Assembly (NCBI RefSeq): GCF_000498495.1
Contig: NZ_AVCS01000002.1
Coordinates: forward strand, 62,001 to 126,000
DNA length: 64,000 nucleotides
Direction of reading: 5' to 3'
Source of the DNA: Flavobacterium enshiense DK69
Lineage (GTDB): Bacteria > Bacteroidota > Bacteroidia > Flavobacteriales > Flavobacteriaceae
The notes under the pieces were generated by a model. It was not told the DNA's origin and made no database searches. It saw only the letters and a program-made list of their open reading frames with translations. The translations under genes and the position numbers were made by a program. Below, piece by piece: positions 7,924-62,538 of this stretch (within the stretch, counting starts at the first letter, position 1; each line of letters starts with the position of its first letter).

Positions 7924-9852
7924 ATGAAAAATTTCTTCCGTATAAGCGAATATAAAGCGCTGTTGTATAGATTGTTGCTGGTATATTTCTTTTATTTCAT
8001 TGCCCGAGCCTTATTTTTTGTTTACAATTACAGTTTGCTGAAAGTCAATTCTGTGGGTGAATTTTTCAGGCTGGCTTATCACGGATTAACATTTGACACT
8101 ACTGCGATTCTTTATATCAACGGCTTATTTATCCTGTTTTCGGTTTTACCGTTTTGGGTTAATACCAAAGCGGGTTATCAGAAATTCTTATTTTATCTGT
8201 ATTTCGTTACTAATCTGATAGCGTACGCAACGAATTTCATTGATCTGATTTATTACAAATTCATCTACGCCCGTACCACAATTGCCGTTTGGGATTCCCT
8301 GGAGCATGAAAAAGATAAAGGTTCTATGATGTTCCGTTTCCTGATAAGCTACTGGCACGTTTATATGCTGTTTTTTCTTTTGGCTGCGTTGTGGATTTAC
8401 CTGTATAAAAAAGTAAGGGTCGATCATGAACCGGTTACTCACAGTAAAATGAAGTATTTTCCTTTTTCCGTCATCGGTTTATTGGCGGTTGCTTTTTTAA
8501 CTGTTGGAGGTATACGAGGTGATTTTAAAAAGAGTACGCGTCCTATAAATTTAATAGATGCTAATAGGTATGTAGGGCAACCGCAACATGCCGATATCGT
8601 TTTAAATACTCCGTTTGCTATTATAAGGACTGCTGGAACAACAAGTTTCAAAAAAATAAATCTGGTAGATGAAAATGTAGTAGAAGCTAATTTTCAGCCG
8701 ATTAAACACTACGATAACAATCCGAAATCTACTCCGAATGTGGTGCTGATCATCACTGAAAGTTTTGGAAGGGAATATTGGGGATCTTTCAATAAGGATA
8801 TGAAAATCCCAGATTATGTTGGCTATACGCCGTTTTTGGATTCTTTGGCGCAACACAGTATGATTTATACCAACGGCTTTGCCAACGGAAGCAAGTCAAT
8901 TCATGGAATGTCATCGATTATAGCGGGTGTTCCTTCGTTCAGGGATGCATTTACATCCTCTCCGTATCCGAAACAGAAAATACAATCTTTGGTTTCCTGC
9001 CTGAAAGAGATGGGATATGATACTTCATTTTTCCACGGAGCGCCAAACGGATCAATGGGCTTTCTCGGTTTCGGAAATATCTTGGGTTTTGATCATTATT
9101 ACGGTAAAACGGAATTTAATAACGATGCTGAGTTTGACGGCGTGTGGGGAATCTGGGATGAACCTTTCCTGCAGTTCATGAAACAGACGTTGGATAAAAA
9201 GCAAAAACCGTTCTTCAGTACGATATTTACGGTTTCCTCACACGAGCCTTATATTGTTCCTGAAAAATATAGGAACAAGTTTCCTAAAGGGCATGTGCCA
9301 ATGCACCAATGTGTTGGATACACCGATTATTCGTTTAAAAAATTCTTCGAGGAAGCTAAAAAACAGCCTTGGTTTAAAAATACCATTTTTATTATCACGG
9401 CCGATCACGGAAACCAAACGTATTATAATGAATATGAAAAAGTGGTCAACCGAACGGCTACTCCGATTCTCATTTATAAACCTGACGGAAGCCTGAAAGG
9501 TGTCAATAAAGAATTGGCACAACAAATAGATATTTATCCGACCATCTTAGATATTGTGGGTTATGACAAACCATTCAGAAGCTGGGGAAGAAGTTTAATC
9601 GGAGACAAAAAGATAAAGCCGTATACAATTAACTTTAACGGAAACCTGTATCAGTTTCAGCGTGGTAATTATATTTGTACTTTCGACGGTAAGGAAATAG
9701 TCGGATATTATGATATAAATGATAAAGCGCTTGAGCGAAATTTAATAGCTAAACCCAACAAAGAGATGTTGGAAAACGCTGAAGCTTGTAAAGCAATTAT
9801 TCAGGATTACTTCGAAAGAATTATTGATCAGAAATTATATTATAAAAAATAA
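7924..9852 (+). CDS. LtaS-like sulfatase-fold membrane enzyme
   Basis: Membrane protein of the alkaline phosphatase/sulfatase superfamily, LTA-synthase-like branch. These transfer phosphoglycerol or phosphoethanolamine groups outside the inner membrane. The first ~200 residues hold about five hydrophobic helices; the rest is an extracytoplasmic catalytic domain. Thr278 in IITESFGREYWG is at the nucleophile position of LtaS, and ADHGNQ carries distal metal ligands. I start at MKNFFRIS: the upstream in-frame ATG (7855) would place the likely -7 box inside the coding sequence. A Gram-negative does not make lipoteichoic acid, so the acceptor is unknown. 11 bases separate it from the next gene, so the two are co-transcribed. 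Confidence 0.85.
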   Translation: MKNFFRISEYKALLYRLLLVYFFYFIARALFFVYNYSLLKVNSVGEFFRLAYHGLTFDTTAILYINGLFILFSVLPFWVNTKAGYQKFLFYLYFVTNLIAYATNFIDLIYYKFIYARTTIAVWDSLEHEKDKGSMMFRFLISYWHVYMLFFLLAALWIYLYKKVRVDHEPVTHSKMKYFPFSVIGLLAVAFLTVGGIRGDFKKSTRPINLIDANRYVGQPQHADIVLNTPFAIIRTAGTTSFKKINLVDENVVEANFQPIKHYDNNPKSTPNVVLIITESFGREYWGSFNKDMKIPDYVGYTPFLDSLAQHSMIYTNGFANGSKSIHGMSSIIAGVPSFRDAFTSSPYPKQKIQSLVSCLKEMGYDTSFFHGAPNGSMGFLGFGNILGFDHYYGKTEFNNDAEFDGVWGIWDEPFLQFMKQTLDKKQKPFFSTIFTVSSHEPYIVPEKYRNKFPKGHVPMHQCVGYTDYSFKKFFEEAKKQPWFKNTIFIITADHGNQTYYNEYEKVVNRTATPILIYKPDGSLKGVNKELAQQIDIYPTILDIVGYDKPFRSWGRSLIGDKKIKPYTINFNGNLYQFQRGNYICTFDGKEIVGYYDINDKALERNLIAKPNKEMLENAEACKAIIQDYFERIIDQKLYYKK

Positions 9853-9863
9853 ATTATACATAT

Positions 9864-10439
9864 ATGAAAAAGAAAATTGGATTATTAGTCCTTTTAATAG
9901 TTTTGGCCGGAGTGGGGAAATATGTTTACGATATGAACATCAACCACAACTTCGAAACCATCACAGAAGGAAAAGTGTATAAAAGTGGTGTGATCCCTCC
10001 AGATGAAATAGAGGAGTATGTAAACAAGTATCATATTAAAAGTATCGTGGATTTACGTTTTCCGGGTACGGGCGATGATGTAAATAATCCTGAAATTCCT
10101 GCTGAATTGATTGCGGAAAGAGAAGCTATAGCTAAAATCCCTGGAGTGAATTATTTTAACAACGGTTCTGATCAGGTTCCGCAGCAACATAATTTGGACA
10201 CGTTTTTTAAAATTATGGATGATCAGAAAAACTATCCTGTTTTAATCCACTGTTATCATGGTGTTGGTCGCGCGGAAATGTACTCGGCATTGTATCGTAT
10301 TGAATATGAAGGAATGGATAGGGATGAAGCAAGAACCTCTACTCGTTTCCTAACCAAATGGAGTTCATTCGATCTGGGCAAGCCTAAAGGAGATTATTTA
10401 CATAGTTATAAAAGCAGAAAAGAGAAGGAAACAAAATAA
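9864..10439 (+). CDS. Membrane-anchored dual-specificity/tyrosine phosphatase-like protein
   Basis: 191 residues with an N-terminal hydrophobic anchor (IGLLVLLIVLAGVGKYV), so the catalytic part faces the periplasm or the membrane surface. The P-loop motif HCYHGVGRAE gives Cys130 and Arg136 in the CX5R arrangement. The conserved IVDLRFPGTGDD segment earlier is typical of Siw14/DSP-like phosphatases that act on phosphoinositides or phosphorylated small molecules. Coupling to the LtaS-like gene suggests that the pair handles phosphorylated head groups in the envelope; this is inference. It ends before a clear terminator. Confidence 0.8.
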   Translation: MKKKIGLLVLLIVLAGVGKYVYDMNINHNFETITEGKVYKSGVIPPDEIEEYVNKYHIKSIVDLRFPGTGDDVNNPEIPAELIAEREAIAKIPGVNYFNNGSDQVPQQHNLDTFFKIMDDQKNYPVLIHCYHGVGRAEMYSALYRIEYEGMDRDEARTSTRFLTKWSSFDLGKPKGDYLHSYKSRKEKETK

Positions 10440-10460
10440 GAATCCTTAATTAGGTAATAG

Positions 10461-10498
10461 AAAAAAGCCGTTTTTGATTTCAAAAATGGCTTTTTTAT
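10461..10498 (+). terminator. Intrinsic terminator
   Basis: GCCGTTTTTG (10467-10476) pairs with CAAAAATGGC (10481-10490), including one G-U, around a short loop, followed by TTTTTT. It ends the LtaS-like/phosphatase unit. Confidence 0.8.
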
Positions 10499-45142: not shown

Positions 45143-45161
45143 TTTTTAGTGTTTTTTACCT

Positions 45162-45250
45162 GCGTTAGGGATGGGAACGACATCCTTTTTTGTGGCTTTT
45201 TCAGGCACAAAAAAGATATAGTGTACAGCCCGACCCTTGTGGTAACGCCC
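45162..45250. repeat. 89-base intergenic repeat element between trpB and trpA
   Basis: Ends GCGTTAGGG (45162-45170) and GGTAACGCCC (45241-45250) share an inverted GCGTTA core. Inside, CTTTTTTGTG (45185-45194) pairs perfectly with CACAAAAAAG (45206-45215). Its wording (GGGCGTTACC..., GGGTCGGGCTGTAC..., CATCCCTAACGC on the minus strand) matches, from memory, a repeat scattered through Flavobacterium genomes; copy number not checked. Confidence 0.6.
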
Positions 45251-51011: not shown

Positions 51012-51044
51012 AAAAAAAGGCTTGTCGTGATTGACAAGCCTTTT
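51012..51044 (-). terminator. trp leader attenuator (terminator hairpin)
   Basis: On the minus strand AAAAGGCTTGTC pairs perfectly with GACAAGCCTTTT around AATCAC, followed by seven T. It lies 21 bases before trpE and after the leader peptide, so it stops transcription before the structural genes. A competing fold is described under findings. Confidence 0.9.
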
Positions 51045-51082
51045 ATCTATGTAGTTTTTAAAAATACAGATAGGAGGATTCG

Positions 51083-51139
51083 CTCACGATTTTCGACGTA
51101 AGTTAATCCACCACCAAGTATTGTTTAAAATGTTGTTCA
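51083..51139 (-). CDS. trpL: trp operon leader peptide
   Basis: 18 codons, MNNILNNTWWWINLRRKS, with three consecutive Trp codons at positions 9-11 (51115-51107) and stop TGA at 51085-51083. It sits between the operon promoter and the terminator hairpin. The segment TCGTGA formed by its last sense codon and stop is complementary to TCACGA in the terminator loop region. A ribosome stalled at the Trp codons would leave it free; a ribosome at the stop would cover it. This is the classic architecture of ribosome-mediated trp attenuation. Confidence 0.88.
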
Positions 51140-51158
51140 TTTTGTGTTTTTGTTTGAT

Positions 51159-51191
51159 GCAAAGTTATAGAAATGATTTTCGAATACACAA
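51159..51191 (-). promoter_or_regulatory. trp operon promoter, Bacteroidota type
   Basis: On the minus strand TTG (near 51189-51191), about 22 bases, then TAACTTTG (51159-51166), placing transcription start roughly 10-15 bases before the leader ATG. Confidence 0.6.
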
Positions 51192-53090: not shown

Positions 53091-56000
53091 AAACAGTTTT
53101 CCGGTTCGACCTTCAGGGGTATTTCAAAAGATGGGGTTTTTATGTTGTACTACTATTGATTTTTTCTTTCGGAGTTTTTGGCGGACAAAATGCCCGTTTT
53201 TCAGTTAGTGAAAATGTGTTTTTCAATTCGCCTTACCAAGTTGGTTTCATAACGGCTTTTATCAGTTTGACCACTATTTTTTTCAGTACGCTTTTCGTTG
53301 CTCAACTCGCCATTAAAGAGGTTGATAATCGGTTTGAACAGATTTATTTCAGTACTCCGATTCAAATGAAAAAGTTTCTTTCAGGCCGATATGCTTCGGT
53401 TTTTGTATTGAGTCTTTTGTTTACAATTGTTTTGACCATCAGCTTTTTTATCGGTCAGGCCACAAACTCACGAATTTTAGAAAGCGGTCATTTCAATTTG
53501 ATGCACTACCTCGTTCCGATGCTTTATTTTACGGTCATCAACACGATTTTTGTAACCGCTGTTCTGTGCGTGGTGGCTTGGTTTACTAAAAGTAAAATGC
53601 CCATTTATGTGAGTGGTTTGCTGCTTTATATTTTGTACATGGTTGCGCTATTGTTTTCCAGTTCTCCCTTCATAGCCCAGAGTTTACCTCAATCGGAGCA
53701 AACGAAATTCATTTCGGGAATTTTGGACCCTTTCGGACTGTCGGCTTTTTTTAATCAGACGGCACAATGGACGGTAGTGCAAAGAAATTCGGCAATAATA
53801 GGCTTGGATGGTGTTTTTTTGGGCAATCGTGCAGGTGTTTTGATGATAGCTTTTGTTCTGCTTTATATTGCTTTCAGAAAGTATTCTTTTACAACAAAAA
53901 TCAAACATAAAAAGGTTAGCTTATCAGAAGAAAATCAGGAACTTATTGCTGGTCCTTTTACATTCGTAAGTACAAAAGAAGGTTTAAAAGTTAAGTTGAT
54001 GGCCTTATTGTCATTCGTAAAAATAAACCTGATTTACATTTTTAAAAGTATTCCGTTTGTACTGATTGTTTTGGCACTCCTTTTTGCTGTTGGGATGGAA
54101 ATGTACGCCGAAATTGAAAAGGGTATCCGGATTCCACAGAAATATGCCACTTCAGGATTGATGACCTCTGCAATCATTCAGAATTTTTACGTGTTGGGCG
54201 TTATTGTGGTGCTTTTTTATATCCATGATGTTTACTGGCGCAGCAGGAATGTTAACTTTAATTTGATCGAAGGCAGCACTCCTAATGCTAAAACGCAATT
54301 CTGGGCACATTGGATAACCTTACTCTTGGTAATCACAACCTTTTCCACAGTATTGATTTTTGAAGGAATCGTTTTTCAATGCTTCTATGAGTATACTATT
54401 TTAGAGGGATTTGTGTACGCACGGGTTTTCCTGTTTACCACATTGCCGTTATTTCTTTTAAGCGGTTTTCTGTTGCTTGTCCAAAAAATGGTCAATCAGA
54501 AATATGTTGCTTTTGGCGTTTCGGCTTTATTCGCTTTTGTTATGGCAACGCCTTTAGGAAGAAAATTAATTACTAATCCATTGTTCAAATTTCTTTACAG
54601 CATCAATTTCGATTATAGCGACATGAATGGCTTTAGCAGTTATGAAACCGCGTTCGTATTCCGATTGCTTTTTGGAGCAGTTTTACTGTCCGCTTTGCTG
54701 TATGCCACCCATCTTAGGAAACCTCATTTAAAGAAGGTCTATCCCTATTTGGCGTTAGTTTTTTTGAGTGTAAGTGCGTATGGTTTGGCACAGAAAATCA
54801 AGACGGATTATTTGCCTAAAGATGAAAATTCAGAATGGCAGGCACAAGCTGATTATGAAAAACAATTTCGTAGTTATCAGAAGCTTCCTCAACCTACCAT
54901 TATCGATGTAAAAACTACAGTAGAATTATTTCCGGAGCGTAATTCGTATACGATTGAGGGAACTTATATTCTGGAAAATATGACAGCAAAGAATATTGAA
55001 AAAGTTTTGATCGGCTTTTCAGATGGTTTTATGGTCGCCAACGCTGATTTTCAGTTTAAGGACGACGCACAAACAGTTGCTGGTCAGCATCAAATTCTGA
55101 ATTTGAAGCAGTCGATGTTACCGAAAGAGAAAGCGAAATTTACATTTAAGCTATCCTATAGATGGCAGCCTGTAAACGGTCATCAGTCGTTTAATGCCAT
55201 AGTGGAAAACGGTTCCTTTATGAGAATTAGCCGCTATTATCCGCAAATAGGGTATAACTCGGATGATGAAATTCAGGAGGATAATATCAGAAAGCAATTC
55301 GGATTGGCAGAAAAAACGCAATCCAAGTCTTTTGATGCACCCAAATCACCCAACAATGATTTTGTCAATTTGGAAATGACTATTGCAACTTCCGAAAACC
55401 AAATTGCGATTGGAACGGGAGAATTGGTTAAAAACTGGAAGCAGGGAAAACGAAATTGGTTCCGATATCAGGCAAATCAAATTCCTTTCCGGTTTGCTGT
55501 TTCATCTGCGAAATATGCTTTAAAAAGAGAACAATACAAAGACAAGACTTTTGAAGTGTATTATCATCCTTCCCATCATGAAAATGTACAGCATTTGCTA
55601 ATGAACGCCAAACAGACGATGGATTACTGCGAAGAGAATTTCGGTCCATATCCTTATAAAACGATTCGTTTTGCCGAAGTTTCAGGTTTTACAAAAGGTT
55701 TTGCGGCTACGGCTTATCCAACAACAGTTTACATGACAGAGGATATGATTTTTCACAGCAATATCAAAGCCGATGAGCAGCAAGATGTAATCAATGAATT
55801 GGCCGGTCATGAATTGGCGCATTTGTGGTGGGGTAGTAATCAGATTGTTCCTGACGACAGGGATGGAGCCTCCATGCTCACGGAAACCTTAGCGATGTAT
55901 ACCGAAATGATGCTTTTGAAGAAAATGTACGGGAAAGAAGCAATGCTGAAACGTGTTCAGATGCACATGGATATTTACAATAATGAGAGAGGTTTTTCAA

Positions 56001-56281
56001 ATGAAATGCCTTTGTATCAAGTAAAATCCGATGCAACTCATATTTCGTATTCGAAAGGAGCAGCCGTGATGTGTCTTTTAAGTGAAATAATAGGGGAAGA
56101 CAAGATGAATTTGGCTTTAAAGCGATTTTTGCAAAACAATAAATTTCCAAATCCTAAACCGGTTTCTACGGATTTCATTGCAGAATTATACAAAGTTTCG
56201 GATAAAAAGTATCATGCAAAGATTGAATCACTTTTTACAAGAATTGAGCCTTTAAAAGAGACCGATTTGAGAATGCAGTGA
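53087..56281 (+). CDS. ABC-2 permease fused to an M1-family peptidase domain
   Basis: 1064 residues. About residues 1-560 hold two ABC-2-like membrane blocks with some 12 helices. From about residue 600 an extracytoplasmic M1-aminopeptidase-like region begins (TTVELFPERNSYTIEGTYILENMTAKNIEKV). The zinc motif is His908-Glu909-x-x-His912 in GHELAHLWWGS. The third ligand is probably Glu933 in LTETLAMY, 20 residues after the second His rather than the classic 18. No GAMEN exopeptidase motif is visible. The fusion is known in Bacteroidota; whether it exports and cleaves a peptide is inference. Confidence 0.88.
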   Translation: MKTVFRFDLQGYFKRWGFYVVLLLIFSFGVFGGQNARFSVSENVFFNSPYQVGFITAFISLTTIFFSTLFVAQLAIKEVDNRFEQIYFSTPIQMKKFLSGRYASVFVLSLLFTIVLTISFFIGQATNSRILESGHFNLMHYLVPMLYFTVINTIFVTAVLCVVAWFTKSKMPIYVSGLLLYILYMVALLFSSSPFIAQSLPQSEQTKFISGILDPFGLSAFFNQTAQWTVVQRNSAIIGLDGVFLGNRAGVLMIAFVLLYIAFRKYSFTTKIKHKKVSLSEENQELIAGPFTFVSTKEGLKVKLMALLSFVKINLIYIFKSIPFVLIVLALLFAVGMEMYAEIEKGIRIPQKYATSGLMTSAIIQNFYVLGVIVVLFYIHDVYWRSRNVNFNLIEGSTPNAKTQFWAHWITLLLVITTFSTVLIFEGIVFQCFYEYTILEGFVYARVFLFTTLPLFLLSGFLLLVQKMVNQKYVAFGVSALFAFVMATPLGRKLITNPLFKFLYSINFDYSDMNGFSSYETAFVFRLLFGAVLLSALLYATHLRKPHLKKVYPYLALVFLSVSAYGLAQKIKTDYLPKDENSEWQAQADYEKQFRSYQKLPQPTIIDVKTTVELFPERNSYTIEGTYILENMTAKNIEKVLIGFSDGFMVANADFQFKDDAQTVAGQHQILNLKQSMLPKEKAKFTFKLSYRWQPVNGHQSFNAIVENGSFMRISRYYPQIGYNSDDEIQEDNIRKQFGLAEKTQSKSFDAPKSPNNDFVNLEMTIATSENQIAIGTGELVKNWKQGKRNWFRYQANQIPFRFAVSSAKYALKREQYKDKTFEVYYHPSHHENVQHLLMNAKQTMDYCEENFGPYPYKTIRFAEVSGFTKGFAATAYPTTVYMTEDMIFHSNIKADEQQDVINELAGHELAHLWWGSNQIVPDDRDGASMLTETLAMYTEMMLLKKMYGKEAMLKRVQMHMDIYNNERGFSNEMPLYQVKSDATHISYSKGAAVMCLLSEIIGEDKMNLALKRFLQNNKFPNPKPVSTDFIAELYKVSDKKYHAKIESLFTRIEPLKETDLRMQ

Positions 56282-56420
56282 TGAAAAAAGAAGTTTTAAT
56301 TTAAAAAAAAATGATTGTTTTTCTTGAATTTTCCACATTCTGCAAAGGTTTTGTTTTTGTTATATATGCAGAAAAATAAAGGCTTTTGTTGATATTAATA
56401 ACAATTTTGCAAAAATATAT

Positions 56421-56449
56421 TTGATTAATAAAAAAACTTTATACATTTG
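56421..56449 (+). promoter_or_regulatory. Promoter of the sulfur assimilation operon
   Basis: TTG (56421-56423), 18 bases, TACATTTG (56442-56449), 24 bases before the first leader ATG. The palindrome TTTTGCAAAA (56405-56414) directly upstream could be a regulator site. Confidence 0.65.
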
Positions 56450-56473
56450 CAGAGTTCAAAAGAACCGACAAAA

Positions 56474-56548
56474 ATGAAAAACCAAGTTTTAAATATGATG
56501 ATGTGTATGTGCTGCTCAGACAATGAGGAGGGCTTTGCTATTCGTTAA
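56474..56548 (+). CDS. Leader peptide 1 of the sulfur operon (Met/Cys-rich)
   Basis: 24 codons. Starts MKNQVLN, then MMMCMCC at positions 8-14 (ATGATGATGTGTATGTGCTGC), then SDNEEGFAIR and TAA. The Glu-Glu codons GAGGAG (56525-56530) and following TTTGC (56534-56538) are complementary to CTCCTC (56578-56583) and GCAAA (56571-56575), which form and flank the 5' arm of the terminator behind it. Stalling at the Met/Cys run would free this segment to form an antiterminator. No protein function is expected. Confidence 0.8.
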   Translation: MKNQVLNMMMCMCCSDNEEGFAIR

Positions 56549-56576
56549 TATTTAAAATCAAAAATATTCGGCAAAA

Positions 56577-56606
56577 ACTCCTCAAGCAATTGGGGAGTTT
56601 TTTTTT
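56577..56606 (+). terminator. Attenuator 1 of the sulfur operon
   Basis: ACTCCTCAA (56577-56585) pairs with TTGGGGAGT (56590-56598), one G-U, around a GCAA tetraloop, followed by a run of nine T. It lies between leader peptides 1 and 2. Confidence 0.88.
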
Positions 56607-56640
56607 ACTCTGGATTTTAACAACAATAAGAAACACAAAA

Positions 56641-56754
56641 ATGAATACAGTAACAATCATAACGGCCATCTCAATAACATCTGCAACTTGTATGATGATG
56701 ATGTGTTGTATGCGAAACTTCGCAAGAGGCCGTCTGTTGTATTATTTGAAGTAA
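56641..56754 (+). CDS. Leader peptide 2 of the sulfur operon (Met/Cys-rich)
   Basis: 37 codons from ATG at 56641. Positions 17-24 read CMMMMCCM (56689-56712), followed by RNFARGRLLYYLK and TAA. The Ala-Arg-Gly codons contain CAAGAGGC (56723-56730), perfectly complementary over eight bases to GCCTCTTG (56777-56784) in the 5' arm of the next terminator. A small hairpin TGCGA...TCGCA (56711-56724) right after the last Met codon could act as the competing 1:2 stem. No promoter is visible between terminator 1 and this peptide, so the two attenuators are in series. Confidence 0.8.
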   Translation: MNTVTIITAISITSATCMMMMCCMRNFARGRLLYYLK

Positions 56755-56770
56755 AGAATAGTATATGAAA

Positions 56771-56803
56771 ACACAAGCCTCTTGATTTCAAGGGGCTTTT
56801 TTT
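56771..56803 (+). terminator. Attenuator 2 of the sulfur operon
   Basis: AAGCCTCTTG (56775-56784) pairs with CAAGGGGCTT (56789-56798), one G-U, around ATTT, followed by TTTTT. It ends 27 bases before cysH. Confidence 0.88.
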
Positions 56804-56829
56804 ATTTCTAATCGTTAATTAACTCACCA

Positions 56830-57525
56830 ATGAATATCGAAATTTTAAATAAACTAACGCAAAATCAGGATATCGCACAAAACCTGAAAGTTTTGTCCGA
56901 AAACGCAACGGGAAAGATTGTGTTTTCAACCAGTTTCGGAATTGAAGACCAATTGATTACTGATGTTATTTTCTCTCAGAAATTGAAAAATATTGAGGTT
57001 TTTACTTTGGATACGGGACGACTTTTTCAGGAAACCTATGCTACATGGCATAAAACGGAATTGCATTACAACCAAAAGATTAAGTCGTTTTATCCGAATA
57101 CTGAAGACCTTGAAATCTTCATTAATGAACGCGGAATCAATCCTTTTTACGAGAGTCAGGAATTACGAAAGCAATGCTGTTACATCCGAAAAGTGGAACC
57201 GTTGCAACGGGCTCTAAAAGATACGAAAGTATGGATAACAGGGCTAAGGGCAGAACATTCGCCGAACAGGAACTCAATTGAAACAGTGCAATGGGATGAA
57301 CAATATCAGCTTTACAAATACAATCCCTTACTGCATTGGACAAGCGACGAAGTCAAGGAATATGTAAACAGCAAAGGAATCCCATATAATGTTTTACACG
57401 ACAAAGGATTCATAAGTATCGGCTGCGCGCCTTGTACCAGAGCTGTCAAGGAGGGAGAGGATTTCAGGGCAGGCCGCTGGTGGTGGGAAGATGCTTCTAA
57501 AAAAGAATGCGGATTGCATGGTTAG
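56830..57525 (+). CDS. cysH: Assimilatory adenylyl-sulfate (APS/PAPS) reductase
   Basis: Reduces activated sulfate to sulfite. 231 residues. PP-loop-like start FSTSFGIEDQLITD, Arg-rich loop TGLRAEHSPNR, and the C-terminal redox Cys in KKECGLHG. It also has the paired cysteines CCYIRKVEPL and CAPCTRAV that ligate a 4Fe-4S cluster. That is the APS-reducing type, which fits the absence of an APS kinase (cysC) gene in the cluster. First structural gene after the two attenuators. Confidence 0.93.
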   Translation: MNIEILNKLTQNQDIAQNLKVLSENATGKIVFSTSFGIEDQLITDVIFSQKLKNIEVFTLDTGRLFQETYATWHKTELHYNQKIKSFYPNTEDLEIFINERGINPFYESQELRKQCCYIRKVEPLQRALKDTKVWITGLRAEHSPNRNSIETVQWDEQYQLYKYNPLLHWTSDEVKEYVNSKGIPYNVLHDKGFISIGCAPCTRAVKEGEDFRAGRWWWEDASKKECGLHG

Positions 57526-57591: not shown

Positions 57592-58497
57592 ATGAGCAAT
57601 ACAATAAATTATTTAAATCAATTGGAAGACGAAGCAATTTATATTCTTCGCGAAACCGCTGCTCAGTTCGAAAAACCGGCTTTGTTGTTTTCAGGAGGAA
57701 AAGACTCTATCGTATTGGTACATCTGGCTTTGAAAGCCTTTCGTCCGGGTAAATTTCCGTTTCCGTTAGTACATATCGATACCGGGCATAATTTTCCGGA
57801 AGCCATTGCCTTCAGGGATTATCTGGTAAACAAAATCGGTGAAAAACTGATTGTGGGTTCGGTGGAAGAAAGTATCAAAAAGTACAACCTGAAAGAAACC
57901 CAAGGTCGATTTCCATCACGGAATGCTTTACAAACTTATGCTTTATTAGATGTAATTCAGGAAAATGAATTTGATGCCTGCATCGGCGGAGCTCGACGTG
58001 ACGAGGAAAAAGCCAGAGCCAAAGAACGTATTTTTTCTGTTAGGGATGATTTCGGGCAATGGGATCCAAAGCTACAACGCCCTGAATTGTGGGATATACT
58101 GAATGGAAAGGTGCAAAAGGGTCATAATGTCCGAGTGTTTCCAATCAGCAATTGGACAGAATTAGACGTGTGGAATTACATCCAAAAGTACAATATCGAA
58201 TTGCCGAGTCTGTATTTCACACACGAACGGGAATGTATTCTGCATCAGGACAAACTGGTGGCAACCTCTGAATTTATTCAGCCTCTGACAACTGACACGG
58301 TCGTGGTTGAAAAAGTACGCTATCGGACCGTTGGCGATATGACTTGTACAGCAGCCGTTCCTTCCGAAGCAGATTCTGTTCAGGATATTATTGATGAAAT
58401 CATTCAGACGCGAATCAGCGAAAGAGGACAAACCCGACTGGACGATCAGCTTTCTGAAGCGGCAATGGAGGACCGAAAGAAGCAGGGATATTTTTAG
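57592..58497 (+). CDS. cysD: Sulfate adenylyltransferase subunit 2
   Basis: Small catalytic subunit of ATP sulfurylase: sulfate + ATP to APS. 301 residues of the PP-loop family, with FSGGKDSIVLVHLA, HIDTGHNFPEA, GGARRDEEKARAKER, and a C-terminal RYRTVGDMTCTAAVPS. Works as a heterodimer with CysN, encoded 46 bases downstream. Confidence 0.96.
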   Translation: MSNTINYLNQLEDEAIYILRETAAQFEKPALLFSGGKDSIVLVHLALKAFRPGKFPFPLVHIDTGHNFPEAIAFRDYLVNKIGEKLIVGSVEESIKKYNLKETQGRFPSRNALQTYALLDVIQENEFDACIGGARRDEEKARAKERIFSVRDDFGQWDPKLQRPELWDILNGKVQKGHNVRVFPISNWTELDVWNYIQKYNIELPSLYFTHERECILHQDKLVATSEFIQPLTTDTVVVEKVRYRTVGDMTCTAAVPSEADSVQDIIDEIIQTRISERGQTRLDDQLSEAAMEDRKKQGYF

Positions 58498-58543: not shown

Positions 58544-59776
58544 ATGAACACATTAAAATTTATAACTGCGGGAAACGTTGACGACGGAAAAAGCACTTTG
58601 ATTGGCCGTCTGCTTTACGATTCCGACAGTATACATACCGATCAACTGGGCGTATTGCAAAAGCAAACGAAACAGGAGGGTGTCGACATAGATTTGTCAT
58701 TAATCACTGACGGATTGCGAGCCGAACGCGAGCAAGGAATTACCATAGATGTAGCTTACAAATATTTCTCGACAAAAAAGCGAAAGTTCATCATAGCCGA
58801 TGCGCCGGGACACGAGCAATACACCCGTAACATGATTACCGGAGCTTCGAATTCCGATTTAATTATCATTTTGGTAGATGCCCGAAAAGGAATCACAACA
58901 CAAACTAAAAGACATGCCAGCATAGGTTCGTTAATGGGAATTAAGAAAGCCATAATTGCTGTAAATAAAATTGATCTGGTAAATTATTCAGAAGATGTTT
59001 TTACCACTATTAAAAATGATTTCGAGACCATTAAAGGGGAGTTGAATTATGATGAAGTGGTGTACATCCCTGTGAGTGCGCTGGTAGGAGACAATATAGT
59101 AGCTAAATCCGAAAAAACGCCTTGGTTTGAAGGTGATACGTTATTGAGTACGTTGGAACATATCGTGATTTCTTCAAAAGAAAATCTGGCTTCCCGTTTT
59201 CAGGTACAGTGGGTAATCCGTCCGAAAGATGAAGAAAACCACGATTATCGAGGTTATGCAGGACAGGTGCTAAGCGGTAATTACAAAACAGGTGATACAG
59301 TAAAAATTTTTCCATCAGGAATTGAATCGACCATCGTTCGTATAGAAAAACATCAGGAAACTGTTGAAAGAGCTATTGCCGGGGAAAATGTAGTTTTCCA
59401 TCTGACGGATAATATCGACATCAGCCGTGGTGACAGCATTGTCAAAACTGATTATCAGCCAACTGTTTCCAATGAACTGAAAACCTGGGTTTGCTGGCTG
59501 GATAATTCGCCTTTGCAGATTGGGAAAACCTACCTGCTGCAGCATCGTTTCAGAACCGTTCGCGTAAAAATTCAGGGAATCGATCGGAAATGGGACATCA
59601 ATGAGTGGCAGTTCAATGATTCAAATGAAGTAAGACTCAACGATATTGGACAAATTTCAGTCAGAACGAACCAGCCTTTGTTTTTTGATGCTTTTACAGA
59701 AAATTCGAAAAACGGAAATGCGATATTAATAGATGAGACCAATTTCAGTACTGTCGGGGCCTTAATGTTCCTGTAA
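58544..59776 (+). CDS. cysN: Sulfate adenylyltransferase subunit 1 (GTPase)
   Basis: GTPase that drives APS formation with CysD. 410 residues, shorter than E. coli CysN and without a fused APS kinase domain. EF-Tu-like motifs: GNVDDGKSTLIGRL, REQGITIDVAY, ADAPGHEQYTRNM and NKIDL, then two beta-barrel domains. Lack of CysC again agrees with direct APS reduction by CysH. Confidence 0.96.
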   Translation: MNTLKFITAGNVDDGKSTLIGRLLYDSDSIHTDQLGVLQKQTKQEGVDIDLSLITDGLRAEREQGITIDVAYKYFSTKKRKFIIADAPGHEQYTRNMITGASNSDLIIILVDARKGITTQTKRHASIGSLMGIKKAIIAVNKIDLVNYSEDVFTTIKNDFETIKGELNYDEVVYIPVSALVGDNIVAKSEKTPWFEGDTLLSTLEHIVISSKENLASRFQVQWVIRPKDEENHDYRGYAGQVLSGNYKTGDTVKIFPSGIESTIVRIEKHQETVERAIAGENVVFHLTDNIDISRGDSIVKTDYQPTVSNELKTWVCWLDNSPLQIGKTYLLQHRFRTVRVKIQGIDRKWDINEWQFNDSNEVRLNDIGQISVRTNQPLFFDAFTENSKNGNAILIDETNFSTVGALMFL

Positions 59777-59787
59777 AATATATAAAA

Positions 59788-60603
59788 ATGAAACATAGCA
59801 TCTATAAAACAAATAGTCTGAGCGAAAAAATATTGCCTGACAAAGCAAAAACTGAAACCTGGACAGAAGAAATTTTTAAGTGGCTCTTTTCGATAGGAGA
59901 GGATTATGCCAATTACAGTTTCTTCCTGAAAAAAGAAGCCCAACTTTGGTCGGAATTAACTGAATTACTGGATAATGTTCTTACAGATAATGAAAACAGG
60001 TTCGAAACGGCAAATCGCTTTTTTGACAAACTGGAAACGATTCACATCCAATTGGAAGCTGATCTTGAAGCGGTATTTAATTTCGATCCGGCAGCCAAAT
60101 CAGTGAGCGAAGTCTTGATTGCTTATCCTGGTTTTTTTGCCATAGCGGTATACCGATTAGCACACGAGCTTTGGATTGACAACGTACCGATTCTTCCGAG
60201 AATAATGGCGGAATATGTTCACAGTAAAACAGGAATCGACATTCATCCCGGAGCGAAAATAGGAGAACGTTTTTTTATCGATCACGGAACCGGAATCGTA
60301 ATTGGGGAAACGTCGGTAATTGGGAACGATGTGAAAATATATCAAGGCGTTACACTTGGAGCGTTGACGGTCAGTAAAGACAAAGCTAAAATAAAACGTC
60401 ATCCGACCATTGGGAATAATGTTACGCTTTATACCAATGCGACTATTTTGGGAGGAAATACGATTATTGGCGATAATGCCGTAATCGGAGGAAATGTCTG
60501 GATTACACAATCGATTCCCGCAAAGTCACTAGTGTATCATAAAAGTGAAATCGTCATTAAGAGTAAAGCTGAATTTCCGGAGCCTCTGAATTTTGTTATC
60601 TAA
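59788..60603 (+). CDS. cysE: Serine O-acetyltransferase
   Basis: Serine + acetyl-CoA to O-acetylserine. 271 residues: N-terminal helical domain, then a left-handed beta-helix of hexapeptide repeats (IDIHPGAKIGERFFIDHGTGIVIGETSVIG, HPTIGNNVTLYTNATILGG). Catalytic His/Asp pair is in FIDHGTG. The C-terminus ends in NFVI, consistent with the tail that binds CysK in the cysteine synthase complex. Eleven bases after cysN. Confidence 0.94.
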   Translation: MKHSIYKTNSLSEKILPDKAKTETWTEEIFKWLFSIGEDYANYSFFLKKEAQLWSELTELLDNVLTDNENRFETANRFFDKLETIHIQLEADLEAVFNFDPAAKSVSEVLIAYPGFFAIAVYRLAHELWIDNVPILPRIMAEYVHSKTGIDIHPGAKIGERFFIDHGTGIVIGETSVIGNDVKIYQGVTLGALTVSKDKAKIKRHPTIGNNVTLYTNATILGGNTIIGDNAVIGGNVWITQSIPAKSLVYHKSEIVIKSKAEFPEPLNFVI

Positions 60604-60731: not shown

Positions 60732-61643
60732 ATGAAAAAAACTACCATTTTGGAAACCATTGGAAACACACCCGTGGTAAAAATCAATAAACTCTTCGGA
60801 GCAAATAAAAACGTGTGGATTAAACTGGAGAGAACCAATCCGGGTAACAGTATCAAAGACCGAATTGCTTTGGCGATGATTGAAGATGCCGAGCGCAAAG
60901 GAATATTAAAACCCAACAGTGTGATTATCGAACCAACCTCAGGAAATACTGGTATTGGTCTGGCTTTGGTAGCGGCCGTAAAAGGATACGAAGTAATCCT
61001 GGTAATGCCCGAATCGATGAGCGTTGAGCGCAGAAAACTGATGGAAATCTACGGAGCGCAATTCGAATTGACGCCACGCGAAAAAGGAATGAAAGGAGCC
61101 ATCGAAAAAGCAAACGAACTGACTAGTCAAATCCCGAATGCCTGGTCACCACAGCAGTTTGACAATCCCGCAAATGTGGAAGTTCATGAAAAAACAACTG
61201 CTCAGGAGATTATAGCCGATTTCCCAGAAGGATTGGACTACTTGATTACAGGCGTGGGTACCGGTGGGCACATTACGGGAACGGCAAGGGTTCTGAAAAA
61301 GAAATTCCCCAATCTGAAAGTAATTGCGGTCGAGCCGGAATTGTCGCCTGTTTTGAGTGGAGGAGCTCCATCTCCACACCCTTTGCAAGGTATCGGGGCA
61401 GGTTTTGTTCCGACTATTTATGGTAATGATTTAATTGACGAAGTGATTCAGGTAGGCCGAGACGAAGCTTTTGAAAACGCCCGAAAGATTGCCAAAGAGG
61501 AAGGTATTTTGGTTGGAATTTCAACAGGAGCATCCTTATCGGCGGTAGCTAAAAAAATCAATGAAATTCCTGATGGCGCGACGGTGCTTACCTTTAATTA
61601 CGATACTGGGGAACGTTACCTTTCCATAGAAGGGTTGTTCTAA
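60732..61643 (+). CDS. cysK: Cysteine synthase (O-acetylserine sulfhydrylase)
   Basis: PLP enzyme that makes cysteine from O-acetylserine and sulfide. 303 residues. PLP lysine in [11 protein letters not shown], substrate loop [13 protein letters not shown], phosphate loop [11 protein letters not shown] and STGASLSAV. 128 bases behind cysE. CysM is an alternative name in this family, but the motif spacing is that of CysK. Confidence 0.94.
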
Positions 61644-61722: not shown

Positions 61723-62538
61723 ATGAAAATTTTAAATAAAGGAAAAGTGATTTTGGCAGGCGCAGGTTCGGGCGATCCGGATTTGATTACCCTGAAAGCA
61801 CTCAAATATCTTCAGAGTGCCGATGTGATTTTAACCGACCGTTTGGTTTCTCCTGAATTGATTGAAGCGCACGCCAATAAAGATGCAATTGTGATTTATG
61901 CGGGTAAACAATGTTCCAAAGGAATCCATACGCCACAGCAGGACATCAACGAACTGATGGTTGAATTTGCCTTGCAGAACAAATTGGTTCTTCGTTTAAA
62001 AGGCGGCGATTCGATGCTGTTTTCCAATATTCTGGATGAATTGCAGGTGCTTAAAGCCAATGGTATTGATTATGAGATCATTCCCGGAATCTCTGCGGCT
62101 TTCGGTGCTGCTTCTTATACCGGAATCCCGCTCACGGCAAGGGGCTATTCAAGTGGTGTCCGGTTCTTGACATTGTATGATTTGAAAACCGTTGCGCCAA
62201 GTCAATGGAAAGATTGGGCAACAACGAGTGATACATTGGTTTTTTACATGAGCGGACAACGATTGGACGCTTTAACGGAATCATTGCTGGAAAACGGCAT
62301 CAGTGCTTTAAAAGGAATTGCCGTGGTTCAGCAGGCTACGACTCCGAACCAAAAAACGACGGTCTTTTCTTTTGAAGAATTGCAAACCAAGATATTGCCC
62401 GAGTTTGAATACGTACCCACACTCATTATTGTAGGTAATGTGGTTCAGCTTCATGAACAATTTAACTGGATAAAAGAGAAAAACGGTACTGAATCCTATT
62501 TCGATAATCATAAAAACACCTACCAAAATGCTATCTGA
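61723..62538 (+). CDS. cobA: Uroporphyrinogen-III C-methyltransferase
   Basis: SAM-dependent methylation of uroporphyrinogen III to precorrin-2, the first step to siroheme, the cofactor of sulfite reductase. 271 residues, not fused to HemD or to the CysG oxidase/chelatase. Motifs: VILAGAGSGDPDLITLKA, VIYAGKQ, LRLKGGDSMLF, PGISAAFGAASYTGIPLT and YMSGQRLD. Overlaps the sulfite reductase flavoprotein gene by 11 bases. Confidence 0.94.
   Translation: MKILNKGKVILAGAGSGDPDLITLKALKYLQSADVILTDRLVSPELIEAHANKDAIVIYAGKQCSKGIHTPQQDINELMVEFALQNKLVLRLKGGDSMLFSNILDELQVLKANGIDYEIIPGISAAFGAASYTGIPLTARGYSSGVRFLTLYDLKTVAPSQWKDWATTSDTLVFYMSGQRLDALTESLLENGISALKGIAVVQQATTPNQKTTVFSFEELQTKILPEFEYVPTLIIVGNVVQLHEQFNWIKEKNGTESYFDNHKNTYQNAI

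Follow-up and report, generated by a model that had tools for sequence, protein, structure and literature searches.

Two Leader Peptides with Methionine and Cysteine Codons, Each Followed by a Terminator, Before the cysH Operon of Flavobacterium enshiense: Probable Attenuators in Series

Why should a bacterium place two short open reading frames (ORFs), both crowded with methionine and cysteine codons and each followed by an intrinsic terminator, between a promoter and its genes for sulfate assimilation? This is the arrangement that can be read in the 64-kb window analysed here (64,000 nucleotides of Flavobacterium enshiense DK69; all positions are those of the window, and features lie on the forward strand unless stated otherwise). 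The two ORFs stand between a promoter motif and cysH-cysD-cysN-cysE-cysK, and the 5′ arm of each terminator is complementary to the 3′ part of its own leader ORF. An earlier note on this DNA had proposed that the two units are ribosome-mediated attenuators acting one after the other, and all of its coordinates match the sequence, base for base.

The genes concerned are readily named. The operon's first gene, cysH (56830–57525), encodes an APS/PAPS reductase (PF01507, with NF002537, TIGR02055, and TIGR00434 above their cut-offs). It is followed by cysD (57592–58497), for a sulfate adenylyltransferase subunit (NCBIfam TIGR02039), the gene of a cysN-type GTPase subunit (58544–59776; Pfam PF00009, the name being taken from its position beside cysD), cysE (59788–60603), for serine acetyltransferase (Pfam SATase_N; TIGR01172 below and NF041874 above cut-off), and cysK (60732–61643), for cysteine synthase (NCBIfam TIGR01139). 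Next comes a gene for uroporphyrinogen-III C-methyltransferase (61723–62538; NCBIfam TIGR01469), which would supply siroheme for sulfite reductase. The ORF after the methyltransferase gene runs off the window and, on reading, resembles a sulfite-reductase flavoprotein.

Within the window the two leaders are exceptional. Among its 733 short ORFs (ATG-started, 7–59 codons, six frames, whole window), they rank first and second for Cys/Met clustering; their best 8-codon stretches hold 8 and 7 Cys/Met codons, and those of the next-best ORFs hold 4. An 8-codon stretch with at least 6 Cys/Met codons occurred in none of 100 first-order Markov versions of the window. The strong terminator that the earlier note placed after each leader was recovered both times by an independent scan of 56000–57200, which found two terminators against a mean of 0.5 in shuffles: terminator 1 (56573–56602; 13 pairs, then a T run) and terminator 2 (56775–56798; 10 pairs, then a T run), both of them present in relatives. 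The leader RNA also folds better than its shuffles (z −4.6 for leader 1, z −2.8 for leader 2). No Rfam family matches the cysH leader at the gathering score or at E up to 5, the riboswitch and T-box models (SAM, T-box, and others) included; at 56280–56860 the best hits score 21–27 bits, against cut-offs of 42–90. Elsewhere in the window, Rfam recognises a Flavo-1 RNA at 45154–45239 (+), with 59.5 bits.

Leader 1 (MKNQVLNMMMCMCCSDNEEGFAIR, 56474–56548) begins with the ATG at 56474, stops at 56546–56548, and has counterparts in relatives. Its sensor codons, ATG ATG ATG TGT ATG TGC TGC (56495–56515), are the MMMCMCC of codons 8–14 noticed earlier, and Met-Cys-Met(-Met)-Cys is kept in leader 1 of nine sequences of the window's clade, with one additional in-frame ATG in F. 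cauense. The 5′ arm of antiterminator 1, TGAGGAG...TTTGC (56524–56538), pairs with 56571–56584. Here the complementarity already described, of GAGGAG (56525–56530) and TTTGC (56534–56538) with GCAAA (56571–56575) and CTCCTC (56578–56583), could be confirmed, and the fold places an AATATTT/AAATATT hairpin (56547–56568; arms 56547–56553 and 56562–56568) at the apex. In the nine sequences 95.2% of cells of the TGAGGAG helix are paired, with 47 of 500 shuffles equal. The minimum free energy fold also contains a protector segment over the last Cys codons (56512–56518), which can pair with 56524–56530 if no ribosome is present; its helix is paired in 96.3% of cells in the nine sequences and has one pair changed on both sides, a result that 57 of 500 shuffles equal. 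Between the end of the antiterminator pairing stretch and the stop codon lie 5 nt, and a ribosome completing leader 1 would therefore mask the antiterminator arm.

Leader 2 (MNTVTIITAISITSATCMMMMCCMRNFARGRLLYYLK, 56641–56754) likewise has counterparts in relatives. Its sensor codons, CMMMMCCM at codons 17–24 (56689–56712), are present as the earlier note had read them and can be aligned in relatives. The 5′ arm of antiterminator 2, CAAGAGGC (56723–56730), and its partner GCCTCTTG (56777–56784) lie just where that note had put them, and their pairing has a shuffle p of 0.005–0.045 in nine sequences including the window. This arm and the stop codon are about 20 nt apart, and a ribosome paused at the end of the ORF would leave the arm uncovered; the closed state of gate 2 is explained less well than that of gate 1. 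A protector pairing in leader 2 (GGCC...GGCC) is not claimed, the stretch being missing from five aligned relatives.

When a ribosome is placed on the Cys codons in silico, the antiterminators are the best fold before the 3′ arm of the terminator is made. With the RNA complete, stability favours the terminator fold, at −21.2 versus −16.6 kcal/mol for leader 1 and −23.3 versus −19.2 kcal/mol for leader 2, and read-through must therefore be kinetic, decided by timing. (The ribosome positions used for leader 2 were one base too low, without visible effect on the folds.) Each unit in the window combines a short predicted ORF with a run of pathway amino-acid codons, a mutually exclusive antiterminator starting just 3′ of the sensor codons, and, as in the relatives, an intrinsic terminator between the leader ORF and the first gene.

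Do the two units share one transcript? The window has a putative promoter of the Bacteroidota type at 56420–56449 (TTTG at 56420–56423, an 18-nt spacer, and TACATTTG at 56442–56449), and transcription would be expected to start near 56455. The motif TAnnTTTG, found at 56442 in the window, is of a type that we take to be the Bacteroidota promoter consensus. Of 31 loci, 26 have it 12–33 nt ahead of leader 1, against about 0.05 expected per 80 nt (calculated for the window), and at 24 of these 26 there is also a TTG 15–26 nt further upstream. It occurs in none of the 21 inter-leader spacers. The motif search finds both units downstream of one promoter motif, with no such motif between them. Most likely, therefore, a single transcript carries the two gates one after the other, and leader 2 would be reached only through read-through of terminator 1, barring an unrecognised promoter.

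The working of such a leader can be outlined as follows. With transcription starting near 56455, a ribosome would follow the polymerase on leader 1. If both Cys-tRNA and Met-tRNA are charged, the ribosome would reach the stop codon and cover the arm at 56524–56538, terminator 1 would form, and transcription would end near 56606. If either is short, the ribosome would stall in MMMCMCC, the arm beyond its footprint would stay free to pair with the emerging 5′ arm of the terminator, and the polymerase would read through. The same decision would be taken at leader 2 with CMMMMCCM and CAAGAGGC/GCCTCTTG, and the cys operon would be transcribed only by polymerase that has passed both gates. Charged tRNA as the signal, stalling, the termination efficiencies, the need for two read-through events, and any effect on expression are what we infer from this anatomy, as is the benefit, namely that the leak of gate 1 would be multiplied by that of gate 2 to give tighter repression and a steeper response.

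If this outline is right, its parts should recur in relatives. The DNA motif of leader 2, taken alone, is found in 3 of 150 genomes of the genus and 1 of 397 of the family (each count including the window's own genome); it is clade-specific, and the comparison was therefore turned to synteny. A CysH search of 398 Flavobacterium genomes gave 23 with a close CysH (E ≤ 1e-95), and 20 of the 23 have the order ORF1-terminator1-ORF2-terminator2-cysH. With a stricter leader score 19 are tandem, the twentieth (L191) being weaker; the remaining three comprise L091 and L195, with one leader each, and L090, with none that has a terminator. F. humi (L003), from a separate search, is also tandem. Two records were merged with others (L184 duplicates L002 and was left out, and L001 is represented by L083). 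In an alignment of six Flavobacterium intergenic regions, both leaders, both terminators, and the promoter motif are visible.

The sequences themselves diverge widely between leader families, for example CNMCCCMGKISAETTIA with the arm CCTCTGC and STSVCCACFLKKEP with the arm GCTCCTT. Leaders and terminators vary by lineage; the Cys run stays throughout, and Met in most. At greater distance, a lax score applied to 20 Flavobacterium loci with a more distant CysH found a Cys/Met ORF within 700 nt at 8 of them and none at the other 12. A family-wide CysH search matched 156 of 299 genomes, and among the matches listed, 11, including the window, have E < 1e-70. The earlier note had asked for a comparison of this kind, and its outcome is favourable: relatives have retained the tandem arrangement, the runs of Cys/Met codons, and the pairing of antiterminator with terminator despite sequence divergence.

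How specific is the pairing? For 52 leader-terminator pairs at cysH loci, pairing between the region 3′ of the last clustered Cys codon and the 5′ arm of its own terminator was computed and compared with 200 shuffles; leaders without a terminator in range were left out, and one out-of-frame duplicate ORF of L185 was excluded from the counts. Against shuffled leader regions, 39 of the 52 pairs reach p ≤ 0.05 and 13 do not. All 18 pairs of the window's clade do so, and 6 of the 12 in family B1 miss this threshold; within B1, L193 and L194 have A-U where others have G-C or G-U. The antiterminator begins 3–18 nt after the last clustered Cys codon, which is about the downstream reach of a stalled ribosome.

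Own pairs are also stronger than exchanged pairs across 11 families (double-centred mean −3.1 kcal/mol, permutation p about 1e-4), families that are not fully independent because the arms of E1, F1, and G1 resemble those of A1. Saprospiraceae and A2 contribute most to this exchange matrix, and E2, F1, and G1 nothing or little. Covariation is strong between lineages and thin inside the window's clade (leader 1 helices, nine sequences), where two-sided changes come chiefly from F. humi, where one antiterminator pair is changed on both sides, as are its counterparts in the protector and the terminator, and 39–57 of 500 shuffles are equal.

The sensor codons, for their part, fit the pathway of the genes downstream. 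Each of 43 Flavobacterium cysH leaders has at least 3 Cys, and in 16 chosen cysH leaders from outside Flavobacterium Cys predominates (means 7.0 and 5.4). Since a Cys/Met score served to select the cysH leaders, the choice itself partly determines these counts. For four leaders that precede metX-like or metB-like genes the averages are 5.2 Met and 0.2 Cys, and 17 metY leaders contain both residues. These groups are chosen examples (for metY 10 first and 7 second leaders, one of the latter entered from an internal ATG; for the terminator-less leaders described below 8 of 28; for metX/metB 4). In the window's genome a metX-like gene follows a leader with Met alone, MKRIERMMMHMMLGNYPQRMLYA. As for these gene names, the best NCBIfam matches of the metX-like protein are MetX models, at 174.7 bits and below the cut-off of 331; the metB-like proteins belong to PF01053 but do not reach the cut-offs of equivalog models; and the single metY protein tested passes TIGR01326.

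These codon counts bear directly on the alternative that survives best, in which the gates read different signals, one chiefly Met and the other chiefly Cys, and the operon integrates two amino acids. Such an arrangement would have a precedent in Salmonella mgtCBR, for which two short ORFs with attenuators are described in one leader mRNA, responding to ATP and proline (PMC3641672). In several relatives (for example L192, L088, and L193), moreover, leader 2 has Cys but no Met beyond its start, and leader 1 has both. However, in the window and eight other clade sequences both leaders contain Met and at least 3 Cys, and the means for Flavobacterium cysH are nearly the same for leader 1 (3.3 Cys and 2.6 Met, n = 23) and leader 2 (3.7 and 2.6, n = 20). 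Where mgtCBR, as so described (PMC3641672), has two signals, the two leaders of the window carry the same two residues, and we regard a division of labour between the gates as unlikely.

The tail of leader 2 raises a second alternative, arrest of the ribosome by the nascent peptide, which would sense, for example, S-adenosylmethionine or cysteine. The tail, RNFARGRL..YYL, is nearly invariant in 8 of 9 clade sequences, as an arrest motif might be. The same stretch contains the antiterminator, however, and in L186 the amino acids change to RYTGGV while the pairing with GCCTCTTG is retained through a G-U pair. In other lineages the tail is wholly different, whereas the Cys/Met run and the complementarity remain. 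Arrest is therefore a most improbable explanation.

Slightly further down the scale stand two more readings. Cys/Met clusters can bind soft metals, and the ORFs might thus be functional small proteins, with terminators that merely end a small-gene transcript; yet the peptides differ between lineages outside the cluster, the 3′ ends of the ORFs are complementary to the terminator arms of their own lineage, and Cys runs stand before cysH and Met runs before met genes, all of which leaves this reading with very little probability. Equally hard to credit is the view that the leaders are decayed or neutral relics and a transcription factor controls cysH, since retention of the complete double unit, leaders and terminators alike, in 20 of 23 genomes would not be expected of relics, even if the Rrf2-type regulator gene between leader and cysH in one Flavobacterium (L144) indicates that protein regulators may also act.

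Taken together, the anatomy, the conservation, the lineage-specific pairing, the pattern of promoter motifs, and the fit of codons to pathway make it highly probable, as judged from sequence comparison, that the cysH operon is preceded by two ribosome-mediated transcription attenuators, which act one after the other on a single transcript. The proposal of the earlier note is thereby supported, by conservation in relatives and by the placement of the promoter motif. We would have been slightly more confident had half of family B1 not failed the shuffle test and the MetX name not fallen below its cut-off.

Beyond that proposal, the cysH leader belongs to a wider set of putative Met/Cys attenuators. 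A chassis pattern (GCAGAG, a spacer, and a CCTCTG hairpin) occurs in 58 of 150 Flavobacterium genomes, and its reversed control in 0 of 150. Among 32 instances that were read, 11 precede a metY start, 7 of these with a second leader and terminator; 12 consist of a single Cys/Met leader before the start of a similar outer-membrane protein (L210, L213, L214, L218, L221, L223, L226, L227, L230, and L235–L237); and the remainder lie before metX-like, metB-like, OsmC, CpeT, and unassigned genes. The one outer-membrane protein tested has a TonB-dependent receptor plug domain, and a receptor of this type with a Cys/Met leader may import a sulfur compound.

We lean towards the view that Flavobacterium has a modular system, in which one constant antiterminator/terminator chassis recurs in front of various operons while the sensor codons are swapped, and in which two dissimilar chassis are often stacked. 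Genes like metX and metB would have a Met-rich code; metY, cysH, and the TonB-dependent receptor one of Cys plus Met; and an OsmC operon a mixed one. If this is true, stacked read-through probabilities would multiply to give a steep, low-leak starvation switch; and since the code of a unit can be altered one codon at a time, a natural sensor would be open to direct rewriting of its specificity.

Several further loci deserve mention in their own right. The window's own genome has, on contig C24, a second leader tandem (reverse complement of L205, about 9520–9854), MNSIKRYMHTCKWNISAEDAIV and MKTTIINNKFIKRMKWACKHYCLYYCCCQYRMS, each with a terminator and with mixed residues (Tyr, Met, His, Cys, Lys, and Trp). 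It precedes three similar ORFs of 58–61 aa and an OsmC-like gene. The three small ORFs lie head to tail at about 9892–10490 of the same reverse complement (MTALKNKI..IKSIVSSIENAQ..., the third MTVLENKI...), and one of them, compared with Pfam, has no match at E 0.001. At L144 a Met/Cys leader, MRINNLNMVMCMCKCFSKEE, stands before an Rrf2-family regulator gene and cysH. A Saprospiraceae metagenome-assembled genome (L056) has its own tandem of poly-Cys leaders with terminators of the GCCCTTCGG type, and the stacking there may be of independent origin (the two pairs have shuffle p of 0.020 and 0.199).

Across the phylum, a Cys-cluster leader lies within 330 nt of cysH in 37 of 79 Bacteroidota loci against 1.15 expected; the 79 were chosen by CysH similarity to the window with close relatives included, and are neither independent nor a random sample of the phylum. 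A terminator follows the leader at 9 of the 37 loci and not at 28. The terminator-less loci (between L007 and L074) include Chitinophagaceae, Rufibacter, and others, with Cys runs at or near the leader stop before cysH, and in 22 of the 28 the last codon before the stop is Cys. As the scan finds no terminator after these leaders, another mode of control (Rho or translation) is likely.

How does all this compare with known systems? The classical attenuators (trp, his, leu, ilv, and pheST) share with the cysH leader an ORF with codons for the product, an antiterminator just downstream, an intrinsic terminator, and an amino-acid operon; the cysH leader differs in its Cys and Met sensor residues, its two full serial units, and its Bacteroidota promoter. 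A predicted Cys attenuator, the uORFC-8-2 motif upstream of cysS in Rhodobacterales, resembles it in a leader ORF that contains two Cys codons and in the intrinsic-terminator stem behind that ORF, but is a single unit before a tRNA synthetase gene in another phylum, with no Met run mentioned in the description of it (PMC8632094). Leader ORFs with Cys codons also precede the cysteine-biosynthesis genes of Actinobacteria, where the Cys run is described near the stop and no conserved terminator hairpin was seen (PMC1262725). The 22 terminator-less Bacteroidota leaders that end in Cys are like these near-stop runs as described there (PMC1262725). The window, by comparison, has internal sensor codons, antiterminators, and intrinsic terminators, and neither of its leaders is of the type with a Cys run at the stop and no terminator hairpin. 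Canestrari in 2020 is said to have dealt with mycobacterial polycysteine short ORFs.

Nearer home, Bacteroid-trp (Rfam RF01692) is a peptide-leader RNA of Bacteroidota, of which the window has a copy at 51033–51160 (−; 60.7 bits), followed by ORFs that on reading resemble trpE and trpG; it differs in sensing Trp, in being a single unit, and in having no match to the cysH leader. In F. psychrophilum, amino-acid operons are reported to show clues of leader-peptide attenuation upstream (PMC9723704). The comparison also took in PMC2965389, PMC7366714, PMC13236596, PMC2864571, and PMC4833913. The statement in the earlier note that no tandem Met/Cys attenuator has been characterised in this phylum agrees with the titles and abstract openings of the open-licence papers listed, among which no same-signal tandem of amino-acid leader-peptide attenuators was found either. 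Mechanism and anatomy would be those of classical attenuation, and the tandem Cys/Met form is what appears to be new.

For the organism, the fact that the double layout is kept in relatives suggests that the cell makes the enzymes leading from sulfate to cysteine only when it is short of sulfur amino acids. The Bacteroidota would gain an RNA-level control mechanism for sulfate assimilation and methionine synthesis, and with it a codon-based route to naming a regulon, for example where a TonB-dependent receptor has a Cys/Met leader. The arrangement also raises a testable question, namely what the stacking of two attenuators buys, be it less leak, a steeper response, or less noise.
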